This document shows positions 39,627 through 48,058 of a DNA stretch of 64,000 nucleotides, one piece after another. This DNA comes from Pantanalinema sp. Its GTDB lineage: Bacteria; Cyanobacteriota; Sericytochromatia; S15B-MN24; UBA4093. Positions within the stretch are counted from its first letter, which is position 1. Each line of letters begins with the position of its first letter. The DNA lies in assembly GCA_036704125.1 (NCBI GenBank), contig DATNQI010000040.1:1-64000 (forward strand), given 5' to 3'. The notes beneath the pieces are model-generated. The model saw nothing but the letters and a program-made list of their open reading frames with translations, was not told the DNA's origin and did not search any database. A program made the position numbers and the translations under genes.

Positions 39627-40499
39627 ATGCAGCAACCACCCAAAGGCTCGCCCCAGCGGGGCACCCAGCCCCTGCGGCAGGGCACGACCCGGCCCTTCTC
39701 GGACACCTTCGTCCCGTCGGGGGGCCCCGCCGCCCCGGCCCAGCAGCGCGGCACCCGCCCCCTCCAGCCGCTCTCGCCAGACGCCCTCAAGACCCTGGTG
39801 CCCCAGCGACTCACCGAGGTCCAGAAGGACCTGGACTACGTCCGGCACCTGACGACCCTCTTCTCGACCCCCGTCACCCTCCTGCGCTACGCCGCCCACC
39901 TGGTGGATGCGCCGCCGGCGCCCGAGGCGCCGGCCGCGGTCGAGGAAACGGGCCCTTCCGGCGAGGAGACCCCGTTGGATCAGCCCGAGGAAGGCGAGGC
40001 GGCGCCTCTCGAGCCCGAGGACCCGACGCCTGTTCCCTTTCGTGGCCTGACCACGGCGCAGCGCGCGCTCGCCCACGACGTGGCCGAGGTGCTGAAGCGC
40101 GACCCCAAGCTCAAGCAGCGCGCCATGGTCGCCCTGTTCCAGTTCGACGACACCCACCGGAACTACCGCGAGGCCGCGGAGCTGATGGACGAGATCTACG
40201 GCTGCGACTTCGCCGCGGCATGGGAGCGCCTCCCCCTGCTCGGCATCGAGCGCCTCAAGGGGAAGGCCTACGCGATCTGCGGCTTCTACGAGAACTTCAA
40301 GCACGACCCGGTGATCAACCGGGTCTTCCCCGCTCCCAGCAACGGCGGTGGCGGCGCCACCGGGCCGCTCAACGCCCCGGGCGGCCGCACCGGCCCCCTG
40401 GTCCAGCCCGTGGTCCAGCCCGTGAGCCAGCCGGTGACCGACACGAGCCTCACGCCGAGCGGCCTGCTCGGCAAGATCAAGGGCCTCTTCGGGAAGTGA
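39627..40499 (+). CDS. Uncharacterised protein, paralogue of the 12443-13111 product
   Basis: A 290-residue protein. The disordered N-terminus repeats a short motif: GTQPL, TTRPF and GTRPL (residues 12-46). A helical region, an acidic Glu/Pro linker (about 92-135) and a conserved C-terminal domain (about 140-235: AQRALAHDVAEVLKRDP, VALFQFDDTHRNYREA, KGKAYAICGFYENFKHD) follow. The tail is Gly/Pro/Val-rich and ends GLLGKIKGLFGK, a possible amphipathic membrane-binding helix. No family is recognised and no signal peptide is present. Confidence 0.75.
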   Translation: MQQPPKGSPQRGTQPLRQGTTRPFSDTFVPSGGPAAPAQQRGTRPLQPLSPDALKTLVPQRLTEVQKDLDYVRHLTTLFSTPVTLLRYAAHLVDAPPAPEAPAAVEETGPSGEETPLDQPEEGEAAPLEPEDPTPVPFRGLTTAQRALAHDVAEVLKRDPKLKQRAMVALFQFDDTHRNYREAAELMDEIYGCDFAAAWERLPLLGIERLKGKAYAICGFYENFKHDPVINRVFPAPSNGGGGATGPLNAPGGRTGPLVQPVVQPVSQPVTDTSLTPSGLLGKIKGLFGK

Positions 40500-40508
40500 T
40501 CCCCCGGC

Positions 40509-43500
40509 TCAGTGGCCGCCCCCCAGGTCCGGTTCGTAGCGCGTGACCCGGTTGCGGCCGTTGCGCTTGGAGGCGTAGAGGGCCTGATCGGCGAACTCGA
40601 CCAGCTCCACCGGGGTCTTGGCGTGCGGTCCGAGGGAGGCCACCCCGATCGAGACGTAGACGTGGAGGATCTCGCCGCCCGGCCCCTGCAGGTCGGTCCC
40701 GGCGATCGCCTCGCGGAGGCGCTCGGCCAGGACCATGGCCCCCGCCTCGTCGGTCTCGGGCATCAGGACCAGCATCTCCTCGCCGCCGAAGCGCCCCGGG
40801 ATGTCCACGTCCTCGCGGATCTGCGCCTTGATGACGCCGGCGACCAGCCTCAGGACGTCGTCGCCCGTGGCGTGGCCGTAGGTGTCGTTGAACTTCTTGA
40901 AGTGGTCGATGTCCATCATCGCGAGGCTCAAGGGCGTGCCGTAGCGCTGGGCCCGGCGCACCTCGCTGGCGAGGCGCTGCTCGAAGTACGACCGGACGTA
41001 GAGGCGCGTCAGGCCGTCCACCGTGGCCCGCTCGTAGAGCTTGGCGTTCTGGATGGCGACCGAGGCCTGGCTCGCGATCGCCTGGAGCAGGTCCAGGTCG
41101 CGTGGGCCGAACGCGTTGACCACCGCCTGCGAGTCCACGTACAGGACCCCCAGAGGCTCCTGCTTGACCATCAGGGGCACGCACATGACGGTGCGCAGGT
41201 TGAGGTCGAGGATCGACTGCTGGGCCTGGAACTGGGCGTGGTCCTTGGTGTCGAGCACGCACTCCGCCTCGAGGGTCGCAAGCACCCGCTGGGTGATGCT
41301 GCCCGAGACCTTCTCGCTCGAGTCCGTCAGGACGTTGCCCGCGCGGTCCTTGGCGTGGTGGACATGCAGCTGCTCGCCGTCGTCGGTCAACAGGATGAAG
41401 CAGCGATCGGCGCCCGTCAGCTTGAGCGTGAAGTCGACGATGTTGTCGATGACCTCCGCGAGCACCAGGGTGGTGCTGACGGTGCGCGCCAGGGTGTTGA
41501 GCATCTCGAGCTGGCGCGAGTGGGCCTCGCGCTCGGCGTCGAGGCGCAGGTTGGCCTGGGCCTGGACGGCCTGGGCCGCTCGCGCCTCAGCGAGCTGCGA
41601 GCGCAAGGCCTCGATCTCCTTGAGGGACGCGAGATAGCGGCCGTCATCCGAGCGCGCCCCGGCGTCCTCGGAAGGCGACAGGTCGCCGCGCCACACCCGC
41701 CACAGCTCGTCGAGCGAGAGCAGCTCCTCGCGCGCGGCCTCGTCCGCGCAGGTTGAAAGCAGGGCATCGAGGGCCTTGCGGGCCTCGGCCAGGAGGCGAT
41801 AGGCCTCGGCCGAGCGACCTTCGAGACGCGCCAGCCCGAAGGTCGCCGCGAGCTTGAGGCGCGGCGAGTCCCCGGCCCGGCGGGCCTGCTCGAGGGCCTC
41901 GCGCGCCTCTCGAACGTTGCCGAGGCGCCCCAGGGCCTGGCCGCGAAGCCAGTGGGCGACGCCCTCCACGTGGGAGGCGCCGCAGGAGGCCGCTGCCGCG
42001 GCCGCGGCCGCGGCAGCCGCCTCCTGCTCGCACAGCGCGTTTTCCGCCCATGCGCGGGCGAGCAGACCGCGCGCCCGGGCGCCATGCGCCTGGTTGGTCT
42101 CGGCCCAGGCGACGAGGCGATCGCTCTTCTCGCGCGCCTCGGCCCCCTCGCCGAGGCGAGCGGCGAGCTCGGCCCCGAGCGAAAGCAGCTTCGGGTCGTA
42201 CTCGTGGATGCCGGTCGAGGCGCTGAGGGCCGTGGCAGACTCGAGCCGGGCCTGGGCCGAGAGGAGGCGCCCGAGCAAAAGCTCCACCTCCACCGCGTAG
42301 CTTTCGACCGTCACGTCGAGGTAGGAGTTGCGGGTCCTCTCGGCCACCGCCCGGGCCGAGCGCAGGCAGGCGTCAGCCGGGGCGCAGGCCCCCAGCTGGG
42401 CGTGAGCGACGGCCTCGACCATCAGGGAAATGCCCTCGTAGAGCGGGTTGCCGGAAGCAGCCGCCGCCTCGGCCGCGGCGCGGGAATGGGCGGCCGAATC
42501 GGCGAAGCATCCGAGCTCGTACGAGGCCATCCCCAGGTTGATGAGGGCGCAGATCCCGTCGTCCTTGATCCCAAGCTCGCCGCAGAGCACGCGCGTCCGC
42601 TCGAACGAGGCCAGGGCGCCATCGTAGCGGCCTACCGACATCTGGGCGTTGCCGAGCAGGTTGAAGGTGTCGTTGAGGCCGGCCTTGTCGCCCAGGCTCT
42701 CCTTGACCGAGCGGGACTCGTCGAGGCAGGCGAGGCCCGTCGCGATGCGCTCGGGGTCCCCCTGGACGTACATCAGGCCCAAGAAGCCGAGGCACGAGCT
42801 GAGCATGGCCTGATCGTCGCGCTCGCGGGCGATCGCGAGCGCCTCCTCGGTGCGCGCGACGGCCGAGGCCGCGTCCCCCTTGAAGTTGTGGAGCCTTCCC
42901 ATGGCGAAGCGCACCCGCGCCCCCTCGGCCGGGTCCGGATGGCGGTCGAGGGCCGCGAGGGCCTCGGTCATGCAGGCGAGGGCCTCGTCGTACTGTGAGC
43001 GGACCTGGTGGAGGATCCCCAGGCTGTAGAGCAGGGAGGCCTCGCGGCCGGTGCCGCCCAGCGCGCGCGCGATGGCCAGGGCCTCCTGGTAGTGGCGGCC
43101 GGCGACGTCGAGCTCGGACGAGTAGCGGGCGATGTCCCCCAGGCCCTGCAAAAAGCCGAGGCGATCGATCGCCTCGCTCGCGTGCGGCAGGCCCGCCTCG
43201 AGCATGGTCCGGGCCTGGTCAAGGCCGAAGAGCGAGAGGCTCTTGCGGGCGGCGGCGAGGGCCGGGCGCACCCCGTTCGAGGGCGACGCGCTGGCCAGCT
43301 GGTGGCGCGCCAGCTCGAAGAGGGCCTCGAGCCGGTCGTCCCCCGCGAGCTCCACCGAGAGGACCTCGGCGATGCGGGTGTGGAGCGCGAGACGCTCGGA
43401 CGCCGCGAGGCGCGCGTCGAGCAGCTCGGCGAACTGGGTGCCGACGAACCGCACGATCCCCTCGTCCTCGCGCAGGATGCCCTCGGCCGCGAGCTGGGCG

Positions 43501-45239
43501 AGGGCCTCGAAGCGCGCGTCCTCGTCGCAAACAACCAGGCGCTGAAGGCGGGCGGCGGGGAAGGGCTGGGCCATGACCGCGGCGAGCTCGGCGATCTCTC
43601 GCGAGAGCGGGGCGAGGCGATCGAGGCGGCGCAAGAGCAGGTCGTGAATGCTCGAGGGCAGGTCCGCGGCAGTGATCGAGAGGCCCTCGGTCCGCCAGCG
43701 GCCCTGGCTGCGGCGCAGGAGGCCCTCCTGGTGGAGGTGGCGCAGGGCTCCCTCGACGAAGAGCGGGTTGCCGAGCGTGGCGCCCTCGAGCCGCTCCAGG
43801 AAGGCGGGCTCCAGGTCGCGGTGGCCGAGGATCGCCTCGGTCATCTCGCGCACCTCGCTCGTGGCGAGCGGCGGCAGGGCCATGGCGCCGGGGATGTCCT
43901 CGCGGCCGGCCGTGACCAGGAGCAAGGGGTGGCCTTCGAGCTTGCTTGCGATCGCAGCCGACAGCTCCTGGCTGCTCGCATCCGCCAAGTGCCAGTCGTC
44001 CAGGATGAGCACGAGCCCGCCGGTTCCGGCCACGCAGGCGAAGAGCTCCACGATCGCCCCCTGGAGGCGGGCCTTCTCCTTCTGGGGGTCGAGCCCGGCC
44101 GTGGCCCCTTCCGGGGCCAGCTCGGACAGCAGGCTCGAGAGCGGCAGGCAGAAGGGCGCGCGCGCCTCGGGAGAAAGCGTGGCGACGGCCGCGCGCAGCA
44201 CCGGCACGAAGGCGGCGTAGGGGGCCCCCTCCTCCTGGCAGGCGGCATTCAGGACCGGCAGGCCCGCGAGCTGCGCCTGGAAGCGAAGCTCCTCGAGCAG
44301 GCGCGTCTTGCCGAGGCCCGGAGCCGCCGTGAAGGCGAGGGTGGTCAGCGCCCGGCGCGAGAGGGCCGAGAGCCCGTCGCTGAAGGCGGCGAGCGCCTCG
44401 TGACGCCCCACGAACGGGCTCGCCCCGAGCATGCCGGAGTCGTCCTCGTCCTGGGCCTCGCCGAGAGCGGCGAGCAGCTCGTGGCACGACTGGAAGCGCG
44501 AAAGCGGGTCCTTGGCCAGCAGGCGCATGACCACGGCCTCGAGCTCGGGCGACACCTCCGGGCAGAGGGGGGAGATCGGCTCGGGGGCCTCCTCCAGGTG
44601 GGCGCGCAGCACCGTCACCGGGTCGTCCCCTTCGAAGGGGACCCGGCCGGTGAGCAGGTGGTAGGCGAGGGCGCCGGCCGAGTAGAGGTCCGAGCGGGCA
44701 TCGAGCTTGGCGCCGCGCGCCACCTCGGGCGACATGTAGGCGAGGGTGCCCTTGATGCCGCCGCCCGGCTGGCCCGAGGGGCCCATCAGGCCGAAGTCCA
44801 TGAGCTTGAGGCGGCCGTCCGGGGTCAGGCGGATGTTCTCGGGCTTGATGTCGCAGTGGACCAGCCCCTGCTGGTGGATGTAGGCGAGGGCCCGGGCGAG
44901 CTGCACCAGGAGCCGGCGAACCTCGTCGCTCGAGAGGGGCAAGAGCGCATCGAGGCCGTCGCCGGGGACGACCTCCATGGTGAAGAAGGGGGTGCCGTCC
45001 TCGAGCGTCCCGAAGTCGTGGACCTCGACCAGGTTTGGGTGGCGCAGGCGCGCCATGGCCCGGAACTCTTGCCGGAAGCGGCGCGCGGCGTCCTCTGGAT
45101 CGGCGGCCTGCTGCAGTGAAAGGGTCTTGAGGGCGAGCCGCTTGCCGTTGGTCAGGTCCTCGGCGAGGTAGACGCACCCCATGCCGCCCCGGCCCAGCAG
45201 GGAGAGAACGCGGTACCGATGGGTAAGCTGCTCGATCAT
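40509..45239 (-). CDS. Multidomain Ser/Thr kinase - ATPase - TPR - GAF - GGDEF signalling protein
   Basis: A 1576-residue cytoplasmic protein. Residues 9-265 form a eukaryotic-type protein kinase: Gly loop GRGGMGCVY, Lys38, VHCDIKPEN, DFG and SPEV. The HRD arginine is Cys (HCD). About 275-530 is an AAA/AfsR-like ATPase (FVGRHEALAAF, APGLGKTRLLEEL, LVLILDDWHLAD). About 640-1130 is a TPR solenoid with a ten-Ala run. About 1240-1400 is a GAF domain. About 1402-1570 is a GGDEF domain with RFGGEEML in place of GG(D/E)EF and no RxxD inhibitory site at the usual spacing. Phosphorylation or GAF input controlling c-di-GMP synthesis is inferred. The end is separated from the 40499 gene by 9 bases (convergent). 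Confidence 0.93.
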   Translation of the reverse strand: MIEQLTHRYRVLSLLGRGGMGCVYLAEDLTNGKRLALKTLSLQQAADPEDAARRFRQEFRAMARLRHPNLVEVHDFGTLEDGTPFFTMEVVPGDGLDALLPLSSDEVRRLLVQLARALAYIHQQGLVHCDIKPENIRLTPDGRLKLMDFGLMGPSGQPGGGIKGTLAYMSPEVARGAKLDARSDLYSAGALAYHLLTGRVPFEGDDPVTVLRAHLEEAPEPISPLCPEVSPELEAVVMRLLAKDPLSRFQSCHELLAALGEAQDEDDSGMLGASPFVGRHEALAAFSDGLSALSRRALTTLAFTAAPGLGKTRLLEELRFQAQLAGLPVLNAACQEEGAPYAAFVPVLRAAVATLSPEARAPFCLPLSSLLSELAPEGATAGLDPQKEKARLQGAIVELFACVAGTGGLVLILDDWHLADASSQELSAAIASKLEGHPLLLVTAGREDIPGAMALPPLATSEVREMTEAILGHRDLEPAFLERLEGATLGNPLFVEGALRHLHQEGLLRRSQGRWRTEGLSITAADLPSSIHDLLLRRLDRLAPLSREIAELAAVMAQPFPAARLQRLVVCDEDARFEALAQLAAEGILREDEGIVRFVGTQFAELLDARLAASERLALHTRIAEVLSVELAGDDRLEALFELARHQLASASPSNGVRPALAAARKSLSLFGLDQARTMLEAGLPHASEAIDRLGFLQGLGDIARYSSELDVAGRHYQEALAIARALGGTGREASLLYSLGILHQVRSQYDEALACMTEALAALDRHPDPAEGARVRFAMGRLHNFKGDAASAVARTEEALAIARERDDQAMLSSCLGFLGLMYVQGDPERIATGLACLDESRSVKESLGDKAGLNDTFNLLGNAQMSVGRYDGALASFERTRVLCGELGIKDDGICALINLGMASYELGCFADSAAHSRAAAEAAAASGNPLYEGISLMVEAVAHAQLGACAPADACLRSARAVAERTRNSYLDVTVESYAVEVELLLGRLLSAQARLESATALSASTGIHEYDPKLLSLGAELAARLGEGAEAREKSDRLVAWAETNQAHGARARGLLARAWAENALCEQEAAAAAAAAAAASCGASHVEGVAHWLRGQALGRLGNVREAREALEQARRAGDSPRLKLAATFGLARLEGRSAEAYRLLAEARKALDALLSTCADEAAREELLSLDELWRVWRGDLSPSEDAGARSDDGRYLASLKEIEALRSQLAEARAAQAVQAQANLRLDAEREAHSRQLEMLNTLARTVSTTLVLAEVIDNIVDFTLKLTGADRCFILLTDDGEQLHVHHAKDRAGNVLTDSSEKVSGSITQRVLATLEAECVLDTKDHAQFQAQQSILDLNLRTVMCVPLMVKQEPLGVLYVDSQAVVNAFGPRDLDLLQAIASQASVAIQNAKLYERATVDGLTRLYVRSYFEQRLASEVRRAQRYGTPLSLAMMDIDHFKKFNDTYGHATGDDVLRLVAGVIKAQIREDVDIPGRFGGEEMLVLMPETDEAGAMVLAERLREAIAGTDLQGPGGEILHVYVSIGVASLGPHAKTPVELVEFADQALYASKRNGRNRVTRYEPDLGGGH

Positions 45240-45356: not shown

Positions 45357-45638
45357 TCAGCCCCTTATGACCTGGCCCTCCTCTCGGATCTCGGCGACCT
45401 TGAACCCCAGATCATTCTCGAGCACCTCCTTGAGGCGGCAGTGGGAGATGAACTCGGGGTTGTACTTGACGGTCACCACCCCCAGGCCGGTGGTGCCGGT
45501 GCCCTCCTCGAAAGGAGCGCTGCTCGCCCTGACGGCGATCGCGCCGTCCAGCGCGCGCAAGCCGTCGATGATCCGGCGCACGCAGGTCTTGCACGTGATG
45601 TCCTCGACGAAGAACGACACTTCCCGATGGTGCAGCAT
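45357..45638 (-). CDS. Heavy-metal-associated-domain-like small protein
   Basis: A 93-residue protein starting at ATG 45638 with GGGAGG 7 bases upstream. The layout VSFFVEDITCKTCVRRIIDGLRALDGA...GVVTVKYNPEF...LKEVLENDLGFKV is that of HMA (copper chaperone) domains: CxxC in the first loop, beta-alpha-beta-beta-alpha-beta. The usual Met of MxCxxC is Ile. An inserted Ser/Gly segment precedes strand 3. Metal is unknown; Cu(I) or Zn is the family norm. It lies 23 bases after the PfkB gene on the same strand. Confidence 0.78.
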   Translation of the reverse strand: MLHHREVSFFVEDITCKTCVRRIIDGLRALDGAIAVRASSAPFEEGTGTTGLGVVTVKYNPEFISHCRLKEVLENDLGFKVAEIREEGQVIRG

Positions 45639-45661
45639 GCCTATCCCTCCCTTGATCCCTT

Positions 45662-46615
45662 CTAGGTTCCGCCGATGGCGAGCGCTCCCACCCGGCGCAG
45701 CTTGACCCGCTCGACCAGGCGCGACACGTCCCTGAGGTGACACAGCTCGGTGCCCGGGGTCATGGCCGTTCCCGCCCCCGCGGCCACCCCCCAAAGCAGG
45801 GCCTCGCCGAGGCTCTCGCCCAAGGAGAGGCGGTAGACGATCCCCGCGACCATCGAGTCGCCCGCGCCGACCGAGGACTGGATCGAGACCTCGGGCGGGG
45901 TCGCGATCCACGCCTCGTGCGCGCTCATGGCGTAGGCCGCGCGGGGGCCGTCCGAGACGACGACCACCTCGACCCCCTGCCTGATCACCTGCTCGGCGGC
46001 AGCGAGGAAGGCCGACTCGCCCTCGATCGAGCGCCCGATGAGGCGCTCCAGCTCGTAGCGATTGGGCTTGACCAGGCTGGGCAGCGCCTCGATCCCCGCC
46101 GCCAGGGCCGGCCCGTCGGCGTCGAGCGCGGTCTTGAGCCCCTTGGAGCGGGCCTCCTCGATCAGGCCGCGGTAGATCTCCTTGGAGAGGCCCGGCGGGA
46201 CGCTGCCCGAAAAGACGATGAAGTCGGGCCGCTCCGCCCAGCCCGAGATCTTGCGCTGGATCCGCTCGCCCTCCTCCTGCCGGACGTAGGGGCCCGGGGC
46301 GTTGATCCGGTAGGACTCGCCGGTGCTCGGGTCCTGCAGGATGAGGTTCTCGCGGGTCTCGCCCTCGATCCAGTTGAAGGCCGAGCGGATGCCCTCGTCC
46401 TCGAGGGCCCGGTGGACGAGCTGGCCGTGGTGACCTCCCAAGAGGCCCAGCGCGAGGGTGCTGCCGCCGAGCTCGCGCACCACCCGCGAGACGTTGATCC
46501 CCTTGCCGCCGGGGTCGAAGCGGACCGAAAGCGCCCGGTTGGTGTCGTCCGAGACCAGGGCGTTCACCGTCAGGGTCCGGTCCATCGAGGGGTTGAGGGT
46601 CACCGTCGCGATCAT
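45662..46615 (-). CDS. PfkB-family sugar kinase, probably 1-phosphofructokinase
   Basis: A 317-residue ribokinase-fold enzyme. Markers are TLNPSMDRT at the N-terminus, FDPGGKGINVSRVVRELGG and the catalytic SSVGAGDSMVAGI (Asp base). The TLNPxxD start and GGKGINV pattern fit FruK/LacC-type kinases (fructose-1-phosphate or tagatose-6-phosphate). No PTS gene is nearby to decide between them. It follows the ROK kinase gene by 13 bases. Confidence 0.87.
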   Translation of the reverse strand: MIATVTLNPSMDRTLTVNALVSDDTNRALSVRFDPGGKGINVSRVVRELGGSTLALGLLGGHHGQLVHRALEDEGIRSAFNWIEGETRENLILQDPSTGESYRINAPGPYVRQEEGERIQRKISGWAERPDFIVFSGSVPPGLSKEIYRGLIEEARSKGLKTALDADGPALAAGIEALPSLVKPNRYELERLIGRSIEGESAFLAAAEQVIRQGVEVVVVSDGPRAAYAMSAHEAWIATPPEVSIQSSVGAGDSMVAGIVYRLSLGESLGEALLWGVAAGAGTAMTPGTELCHLRDVSRLVERVKLRRVGALAIGGT

Positions 46616-46628
46616 GCCCGCCCTCCTC

Positions 46629-47588
46629 TCATGGATGGCCGGCGAGCTTGACCAGCACCCCGGCCCCGATCACCCCTGCCTCGCGCCCGAAGCGCGCCTT
46701 GGCGAAGCGCAGGGCCTCGACCGCGTCCGACAGCGCCCGACGGTGCACGCTCGCCTCGGCGAGCTCGAGGAGCTGGGGCACGCCGCGGATCACTCCGCCC
46801 CCCAGCACGATCAGGTCGGGATTGAGGGTGTTGACGAGGTTCGAGAGGCCCGCCCCCAGGAGCTCCCCGGTCTCCTCGATGATGCGCAGCGCCAGCGCAT
46901 CGCCGCGCAGCCCGGCCTCGGAGATCACCTCCACCCGCAGCTTGGAGAGGTCTCCGCCCACGAGCTCGCTCATGATCGAGGGCTCACCCTTCTCGAGGGC
47001 CTCGCGGGCGCGGCGAGCCATGGCGGTGCCTGAGGCGTAGGACTCCCAGCAGCCGGGATTGCCGCTCGGGCAGGGGGGACCGTCCCAGTTGATGGTCGTG
47101 TGGCCCACCTCGCCCGCGAAGCCGTTCGCCCCCTCGTAGAGGTGGCCGTCGATGACGATCCCCGCGCCGATGCCCGTGCCCACGAAGACGCAGACCATGT
47201 GGCGCACCCCCTTGCCCGCCCCGAAGTGGAGCTCGCCCAGGGCCGCCATGTTGACGTCGTTGTCGACGTAGACCTCCTGGTGGAGGCGATCGCTGAGCAT
47301 CTGGCGCAGGGGGACGTCGCGCCACTGGAGGTTGGGCGAGTAGAGGATGTTGCCCGTCCCCGGCTCGACCAGCCCCGCGCTCGCGACCCCCACCCCGAGC
47401 ACCGCCTCCTTGCCGAGGCCCTCGGTCAGGCGCTCGACCGCCTCCGCCATCTGGTCGGCGACCCCCTCGGGGCCCGCCCCGGTGCGGGTGTAGACCGTGT
47501 CGCTCTTGAGCACGTCCAGGTTGGTGTCGAGCAGGGCCGAGGCGATCTTGGTGCCGCCCAGGTCCATCCCGATGATGTAGTAGCCCAC
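46629..47588 (-). CDS. glcK: ROK-family glucokinase
   Basis: A 319-residue sugar kinase. The phosphate loop is GMDLGGTKIASALL, the catalytic Asp is in VDNDVNMAALGE, and FVGTGIGAGIVIDG, EVGHTTIN follow. The zinc motif, normally CxCGxxGCxE, reads CPSGNPGCWE: the second Cys is Ser. It starts 4 bases after the DUF5335-like gene and precedes the PfkB kinase, so the four genes 47949-45357 look like one operon. Confidence 0.9.
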   Translation of the reverse strand: MGYYIIGMDLGGTKIASALLDTNLDVLKSDTVYTRTGAGPEGVADQMAEAVERLTEGLGKEAVLGVGVASAGLVEPGTGNILYSPNLQWRDVPLRQMLSDRLHQEVYVDNDVNMAALGELHFGAGKGVRHMVCVFVGTGIGAGIVIDGHLYEGANGFAGEVGHTTINWDGPPCPSGNPGCWESYASGTAMARRAREALEKGEPSIMSELVGGDLSKLRVEVISEAGLRGDALALRIIEETGELLGAGLSNLVNTLNPDLIVLGGGVIRGVPQLLELAEASVHRRALSDAVEALRFAKARFGREAGVIGAGVLVKLAGHP

Positions 47589-47592
47589 CTCC

Positions 47593-47949
47593 CTAGACCC
47601 AGGTGAGGATGGTCTTGATCCGGACGTGAGAGGTGGGATCCTCGCCCTCGATGTCGATGGCCAGCGGCCTGCCCTTGTCGTCCTCGCGGACCATCACGCG
47701 CTCGGCGCACTTGACCTCGTGCATGAAGGCGTCCGTCGAGCCGGCCTTCCCCACCTCGATGTCGACCGAGCACGACTCGGACCCCTTGATTTCCGGAGCC
47801 ATCCCGAGGAAGGGGGCCCGGTTCACGACCACCTGATCGCCGAGCTCCTCGCTGTTGACCTGGATGCTCACGGGCCGGTTGAGGCACGTGTTGGTCAGCG
47901 ACGCCATGTAGTCGTTCCACTTGCTCCGATCGATCTCGCGCGTCGTCAT
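47593..47949 (-). CDS. DUF5335-like small protein
   Basis: A 118-residue protein starting at ATG 47949 with AAGGAGG 5 bases upstream. The order IDRSKWNDYMASLTN, then a small beta-rich domain (PVSIQVNSEELGDQVV, FLGMAPEIKGSE) and a closing LAIDIEGEDPTSHVRIK resembles DUF5335, a small family of unknown function. First gene of the probable glcK operon. Confidence 0.68.
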   Translation of the reverse strand: MTTREIDRSKWNDYMASLTNTCLNRPVSIQVNSEELGDQVVVNRAPFLGMAPEIKGSESCSVDIEVGKAGSTDAFMHEVKCAERVMVREDDKGRPLAIDIEGEDPTSHVRIKTILTWV

Positions 47950-48058
47950 GCCACCCTCCTTGCGCAGCGGTTGGCCGTTCCGGCCCTCCCGCGTCCCCCG
48001 GACAGATTGTAACGATGCGTGAATTATCCGGAAGCGGCTCGCAAAGGTCAACGCGAAA

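Follow-up and report, generated by a model that had tools for sequence, protein, structure and literature searches.

We identified a single open reading frame that joins a eukaryotic-type Ser/Thr kinase, a STAND-type ATPase, a TPR solenoid, a GAF domain and a probable diguanylate cyclase (GGDEF) domain on one uninterrupted polypeptide of 1,576 aa. The gene resides on the reverse strand of the window, the whole stretch of 64,000 nucleotides of Pantanalinema sp. DNA analysed here. From the sequence and the structure models, we consider it likely that the protein is a soluble, cytosolic multi-output signal integrator, where a STAND/TPR sensor would serve both an active diguanylate cyclase lacking canonical product inhibition and an active non-RD kinase. 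The sequence, the domain order, the conservation, the predicted fold and the kept residues behind this reading were observed directly. The architecture predicts that a eukaryotic-type kinase may gate c-di-GMP synthesis inside one molecule. As a well-conserved member of a modular kind of protein already on record, it is a good test case rather than a new kind of system.

One polypeptide with two conserved enzymatic ends

The window is part of a single contig in a genome of 3.5 Mb and 96% completeness. Among the named members of the species collection, this genome is nearest to Candidatus Sericytochromatia bacterium S15B-MN24, Cyanobacteria bacterium UBA8530 and Cyanobacteria bacterium RYN_339. 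Judged by these neighbours, the host most likely belongs to the Sericytochromatia, an uncultured non-photosynthetic class placed beside the Cyanobacteria, near their root. The reading frame starts with ATG and has no internal stops. The Pfam domains Pkinase, AAA_16, TPR_12, GAF and GGDEF were matched in this order, each above its curated cut-off, in agreement with the domain composition proposed in the earlier note. This domain and motif observation is confirmed and is far beyond chance. The features of the gene are as follows.

40509..45239, reverse strand: whole open reading frame (P0001), 1,576 aa
44475..45215, reverse strand: Ser/Thr kinase domain, residues 9-255 (Pfam PF00069, 2e-45; motif alignment)
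44850..44858, reverse strand: HCD, non-RD catalytic loop, H128-C129-D130, replacing HRD (sequence and motif alignment)
43350..44417, reverse strand: STAND-type P-loop ATPase with winged-helix-like region, residues 275 to ~630 (AAA_16, motifs, model)
41751..43331, reverse strand: TPR-like helical solenoid of ~14 hairpins, residues ~637-1163 (TPR_12, 6e-12; model helices)
41052..41462, reverse strand: GAF domain, residues 1260-1396, preceded by a long helix (PF01590, 5.5e-16; BLASTP; model)
40548..41027, reverse strand: GGDEF diguanylate cyclase domain, residues 1405-1564 (PF00990, 5.7e-42; residue counts; model)
40803..40814, reverse strand: inhibitory-site (I-site) position, E1476-D-V-D1479, where the Arg of standard spacing is lost and R1475 is one residue out of register
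40773..40787, reverse strand: GGEEM signature, G1485-G-E-E-M1489, replacing GG(D/E)EF (sequence comparison)

A mis-joined or split gene was ruled out by the collinear homologues and the single open frame. Sequencing errors or decay were also ruled out as the source of GGEEM and HCD, both of which are common to homologues from independent assemblies.

On comparison with the orthologues, identity was highest in the GGDEF (60–73%) and kinase (54–65%) domains, followed by GAF (47–56%), the ATPase (35–39%) and the TPR region (31–38%). Therefore, both the enzymatic ends are the constrained parts, and by these identities the protein consists of two well-kept predicted enzymes on either side of a fast-changing sensor middle.

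The GGDEF domain and its GGEEM signature

The GGDEF profile scored 143.7 bits against a cut-off of 23.8. We observed that the metal-binding Asp (D1443), the guanine-binding Asn and Asp (N1451 and D1460), both Glu residues of GGEE (E1487 and E1488) and the phosphate-binding Lys and Arg (K1558 and R1562) are kept, so that all the cyclase residues recognised in PleD are present. The profile match (5.7e-42) and these catalytic residues are consistent with the c-di-GMP-type output suggested earlier, a probable diguanylate cyclase sharing its polypeptide with a kinase.

The replacement of GG(D/E)EF by GGEEM, as pointed out in the earlier note, is real (residues 1485–1489). Among 106 GGDEF domains compared, a set that counts the window protein twice, GGEEM occurred in 10 distinct proteins, all from the same taxonomic order, and in no others. 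GGEEL (4) and GGEEI (2) were also present, and the fifth residue was hydrophobic throughout. In a maximum-likelihood tree of the GAF–GGDEF part, the GGEEM proteins formed one clade (support 99/99) extending across families f1 to f4. The same genome also encodes a second GGEEM protein (G000:C91; L003 244-2211), a GAF–GGDEF protein of 656 aa having neither kinase nor ATPase, which shares 60% identity with the window protein across residues 1345–1572.

No enzyme with precisely GGEEM turned up in the literature searched. Bacillus subtilis DgcP, which is listed among the three diguanylate cyclases of this species, carries GGEEL as its active-site motif (PMC5422440), and hence phenylalanine at the fifth position is not essential. 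The AlphaFold2 model of residues 1225–1576 had a mean pLDDT of 90. In Foldseek comparisons its GGDEF domain superposed on the c-di-GMP-bound structure 3ign (1.3 Å over 167 columns, TM 0.96 of target) and on DosC bound to GTP-alpha-S (4zvf, 1.5 Å), and the GTP-bound 5llx and the GAF–GGDEF-like 4zmu were also among the best matches. At the level of the predicted fold, this superposition on GTP- and c-di-GMP-bound domains would argue against a GGEEM site that cannot bind GTP.

We consider it quite improbable that GGEEM renders the GGDEF domain catalytically dead, leaving it a receptor of GTP or c-di-GMP or a dimerisation module. A methionine as the fifth residue is uncommon, being confined to one clade among the 106 domains, and paralogues with destroyed signatures exist, both of which would fit such a role; however, this position is always hydrophobic, GGEEL and GGEEI occur, DgcP uses GGEEL, and the metal- and GTP-binding residues are all kept in the domain that is conserved best of all. 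Moreover, a dead c-di-GMP receptor is expected to keep the I-site, which has been lost here. The paralogues with broken signatures, GPEEF in L050 and DDTTF in L038, come from the same taxonomic order and are perhaps cyclase-dead receptors. They indicate that cyclase activity can be lost in this family.

GGDEF domains with altered specificity exist, and the enzyme may be envisaged to make another product in place of c-di-GMP, for instance the cGAMP of Hypr-type GGDEF enzymes. Nothing specific favours it here, and we regard it as extremely unlikely. The guanine-specifying Asp, which is replaced in Hypr enzymes, is present as D1460, and by this residue the cGAMP-type cyclase was ruled out; the same position is Asp in 103 of the 106 domains.

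Loss of the canonical inhibitory site

The statement that RxxD is missing at its normal spacing also stands. E1476, and not Arg, is found three residues before the invariant D1479, and an Arg is located at 1475. Judging from the alignment, the loss is a one-residue insertion or slippage that shifted the Arg out of register. The RxxD site is common in diguanylate cyclases but is not required, and it was kept in 65 of the 74 GGEEF domains compared. It was absent from six of the 10 GGEEM proteins and present in the other four (as REED or REDD, all from family f4), so the loss does not extend to the group in general. It is a reasonable inference from the sequence that canonical product inhibition is lost in the predicted cyclase of the 1,576-aa protein.

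A non-RD kinase domain

The kinase domain matched the Hanks-type fold profile with 155.7 bits, has the DxKPxN motif of Ser/Thr-type kinases, and is closest in sequence, among structurally characterised relatives, to PknB/StkP. The G-loop (residues 16–23), K38, E58, D130, K132, N135 and D148FG are kept. HCD indeed takes the place of HRD in the catalytic loop, as described earlier for this protein. We observed HCD, HGD, HLD or HAD in 19/19 aligned homologues from the same taxonomic order and HRD in none of them, and therefore the non-RD loop is a family trait. The catalytic Lys and Glu, the HxD Asp and the DFG Asp are kept in all these 19 homologues, in which the activation loop is uniformly short. 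The arginine of the RD class, absent from this kinase, is not required for activity. The domain is predicted to be a non-RD kinase, probably active without activation-loop phosphorylation.

It is unlikely that the domain is a pseudokinase or a purely structural regulator. The presence of HCD in place of HRD, a short activation loop devoid of the PknB threonine pair, and one clearly degenerate distant relative (L058, see below) would be in accordance with this alternative. On the other hand, active eukaryotic DYRK kinases normally carry HCD, the four catalytic residues are invariant in the 19 homologues, and the domain is as conserved among the orthologues as described above. The earlier note had presented HCD and GGEEM as departures from consensus. 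Both are clade traits common to the relatives and retain the catalytic residues, and so offer no evidence of an altered site.

Strong matches to PADLOC kinase models (PD-T4-6, 2.8e-76) had raised the possibility of a defence role, which was rejected as the matches are essentially confined to the kinase domain. Such matches would be expected from any PknB-like kinase.

The STAND, TPR and GAF region

The AAA_16 match covers residues 275–442 (4.5e-13). In this region we found a Walker A motif (GLGKT, 308), a Walker B motif with an acidic pair (LDDWH, 413) and the GxP motif as GNP (490), and a short winged helix was assigned from secondary structure only. The AlphaFold2 model of residues 264–1205 (pLDDT 87) consists of a P-loop ATPase, a winged-helix-like part and ~14 helical hairpins. 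Its top whole-model fold match was 6mfv, a STAND ATPase with a TPR sensor, and the TPR region matched the TPRs of LGN/Pins. The model and the motifs together show all the sequence hallmarks of STAND ATPases, namely Walker A, Walker B, GxP, winged helix and superstructure-forming repeats. Of the description "AfsR-like ATPase" in the earlier note, the ATPase part is correct, whereas the AfsR-like label is better replaced by STAND ATPase in view of the 6mfv match. STAND proteins usually switch through nucleotide-dependent oligomerisation, which would be a natural way to bring about GGDEF dimerisation.

Most homologues with the same domain order have two GAF domains. The single GAF of the window protein was 41–57% identical to the last GAF of these relatives and 25–40% to the first in BLASTP. 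By these identities it corresponds to the last one, the first GAF having been lost.

Distribution of the architecture and its outputs

Homologues with the same domain order were present in all the sampled genomes of the taxonomic order (the copies in G008 and G009 are cut by contig ends). The host genome also encodes another full-length paralogue (C60, 1,761 aa), which carries GGEEF with RxxD. In a phylum sample of 146 genomes, matches at E 1e-60 were found in only 17, all belonging to the class. In Bacillota, L174 (1,816 aa) has a kinase–AAA_16–GAF–PAS–GGDEF arrangement with GGEEF, i.e. the same domain order plus PAS. These occurrences, as well as a protein published in 2005 (PMC1262709), speak against an exceptional combination. 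The architecture is found elsewhere and has been reported before, this kind of modular protein having first been described in 2005.

We also observed that the same chassis carries other outputs. In other families of the class, a kinase–STAND–TPR–GAF–GAF chassis ends in a SpoIIE-type phosphatase (L193–L197, with L199 covering the beginning of such a protein). A SpoIIE-ended chassis was found once within the same taxonomic order (L205), and the SpoIIE versions, of ~1,820–1,855 aa, have kinase and phosphatase on one chain. Three proteins of the same taxonomic order (L200, L202 and L204) end after GAF. Hence, the multi-paralogue family of Sericytochromatia offers a clear case of output swapping, one sensor chassis being joined to GGDEF, to a SpoIIE phosphatase or to no output.

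In Bacillota, 15 of 150 sampled genomes contained the chassis, whole or in large part, with HisKA, HisKA_2, HisKA_3, HisKA plus receiver plus Hpt, LuxR, a PAS array or GAF–PAS–GGDEF as outputs. One protein from Clostridiales GWD2_32_19 (L058 5983-10803) has HKSIN in the kinase loop, apparently making it a pseudokinase, together with an intact GGEEF. In L058 at least, the cyclase output therefore appears not to need kinase activity. In Myxococcota, the kinase–STAND part occurred in 7 of 78 genomes, in ORFs of 1,162–1,515 aa, and the GGDEF end was unmatched among the matches listed. A census of Chloroflexota at E 1e-60 found no chassis; it had no positive control and is not counted as absence. 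In two Riflebacteria (L055 4993-8487 and L057 5191-8378) and in a Kuenenia genome (L100 5800-8190), a kinase gene is followed on the same strand by a separate GAF–GGDEF or GGDEF gene, the gaps between the open frames being about 130, 48 and 4 bases, respectively.

Gene neighbourhood

Upstream of the kinase/cyclase gene, we located four genes on the same strand.

about 45360..48003, reverse strand: probable operon of four genes (spacing and synteny)
47593-48003, reverse strand: DUF5335
46629-47588, reverse strand: ROK-family glucokinase
45662-46615, reverse strand: 1-phosphofructokinase
45357-45635, reverse strand: small HMA-domain protein, nearest to the kinase/cyclase gene

The gaps in this set range from a few to ~120 bases. 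One sigma-70-like site precedes it (48051-48023), and no terminator-like sites were found within it. The spacing and the synteny suggest that the kinase/cyclase gene is linked to this set. The order DUF5335–ROK–phosphofructokinase–kinase/cyclase is also present in UBA8530 (L052/L189; family f2). In G006 of family f4 (L187), the two genes found downstream, preA and the gene at 39627, occur together again. As the neighbour order recurs in these two genomes, the gene is an orthologue that has been inherited vertically at an old locus. The gene at 39627-40499 (forward strand) encodes a 290-aa protein having no Pfam match, and its position at most a few kb away from the kinase/cyclase gene is conserved in f2 and f4. 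The host genome has 14 GGDEF, 3 EAL and 4 PilZ matches, and therefore a c-di-GMP signalling network is present in the host.

Proposed function

In the integrator reading that we prefer, the two activities, the STAND switch and the control by the kinase are what we infer from the above observations. The STAND ATPase and the TPR solenoid would most likely sense a ligand or a protein partner, and this may switch the protein from an ADP-bound monomer to an ATP-bound oligomer. Oligomerisation could then be passed on through the long helix and the GAF domain, so that two GGDEF domains meet and condense GTP into c-di-GMP. With the I-site Arg displaced from its canonical register, c-di-GMP probably does not switch this cyclase off by the usual feedback. 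The N-terminal non-RD kinase, which is probably active, would phosphorylate its own protein or a partner. Control of the cyclase by the kinase is suggested by their fusion and, by analogy, by the adjacent separate genes elsewhere; the adjoining genes in Riflebacteria and the Kuenenia genome lend support to a functional coupling.

To the possibility that both enzymes are active and yet uncoupled, we give somewhat less than even credence. Here the kinase would target third-party proteins and would not gate the cyclase, leaving two outputs under one STAND/TPR sensor. That the same chassis occurs elsewhere with SpoIIE, histidine kinase, LuxR, GGDEF or no output implies that the kinase is not tied to a cyclase, and the kinase-dead-looking L058 with its intact GGDEF points in the same direction, but the adjoining kinase and GGDEF genes hint at coupling.

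A relay within the single chain is a rather unlikely alternative. In this case, the kinase would phosphorylate its own TPR/GAF part upon a cue from sugar-phosphate metabolism and thereby switch on a cyclase devoid of product inhibition. The cue is proposed because the gene follows those of glucokinase and 1-phosphofructokinase. However, four f4 genomes lack a close phosphofructokinase, and the connection with metabolism is therefore no more than a lead. A link from protein phosphorylation to c-di-GMP in one molecule, as the earlier note put forward, is a plausible hypothesis rather than a discovery.

Comparison with known systems

The nearest published protein is a kinase–six TPR–GGDEF protein of 1,826 aa from Clostridium thermocellum (gi 23020879), reported in 2005 (PMC1262709), whose authors proposed shared downstream signalling via c-di-GMP. 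It likewise has an N-terminal Ser/Thr kinase, a long TPR region and a C-terminal GGDEF on a single chain. However, it comes from another phylum, and the publication reports no ATPase or GAF for it and gives no signature motifs. The Bacillota protein L174 described above is comparable to it. A literature search found no experimental follow-up of this kinase–TPR–GGDEF combination, on record since 2005.

The HstK-type dual kinases of cyanobacteria (cbSTKIII; kinase, GAF and HisKA) and the cyanobacterial Tery_2857 (kinase, GAF and CYCc adenylate cyclase) also have a Ser/Thr kinase, GAF and a second catalytic output on a long chain (PMC2176072). Tery_2857 thus already joins a kinase to a cyclic-nucleotide cyclase, but the outputs of these proteins are a histidine kinase or a class III cyclase and not GGDEF. 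The HisKA and HATPase domains of the HstK-type C-terminus gave no Pfam match in the 1,576-aa protein at E 0.01, and in this comparison no match at E 1e-60 was found outside the class among the sampled genomes of the phylum.

For individual parts of the protein, closer counterparts exist. In the STAND–TPR ATPase 6mfv, too, a P-loop ATPase carrying Walker A/B and GxP precedes a TPR solenoid; the 1,576-aa protein adds a kinase in front and GAF–GGDEF behind. DgcP of B. subtilis and 4zmu of P. aeruginosa also have GAF before GGDEF, and DgcP shares a fifth residue other than Phe; both differ in having no kinase, ATPase or TPR. The kinase domain is related to that of Streptomyces AfsK (NCBIfam AfsK, 1.5e-23 on residues 9–270, far below the equivalog cut-off), and Streptomyces AfsR has an ATPase–TPR part. 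However, AfsK and AfsR are separate proteins, and AfsR acts by DNA binding.
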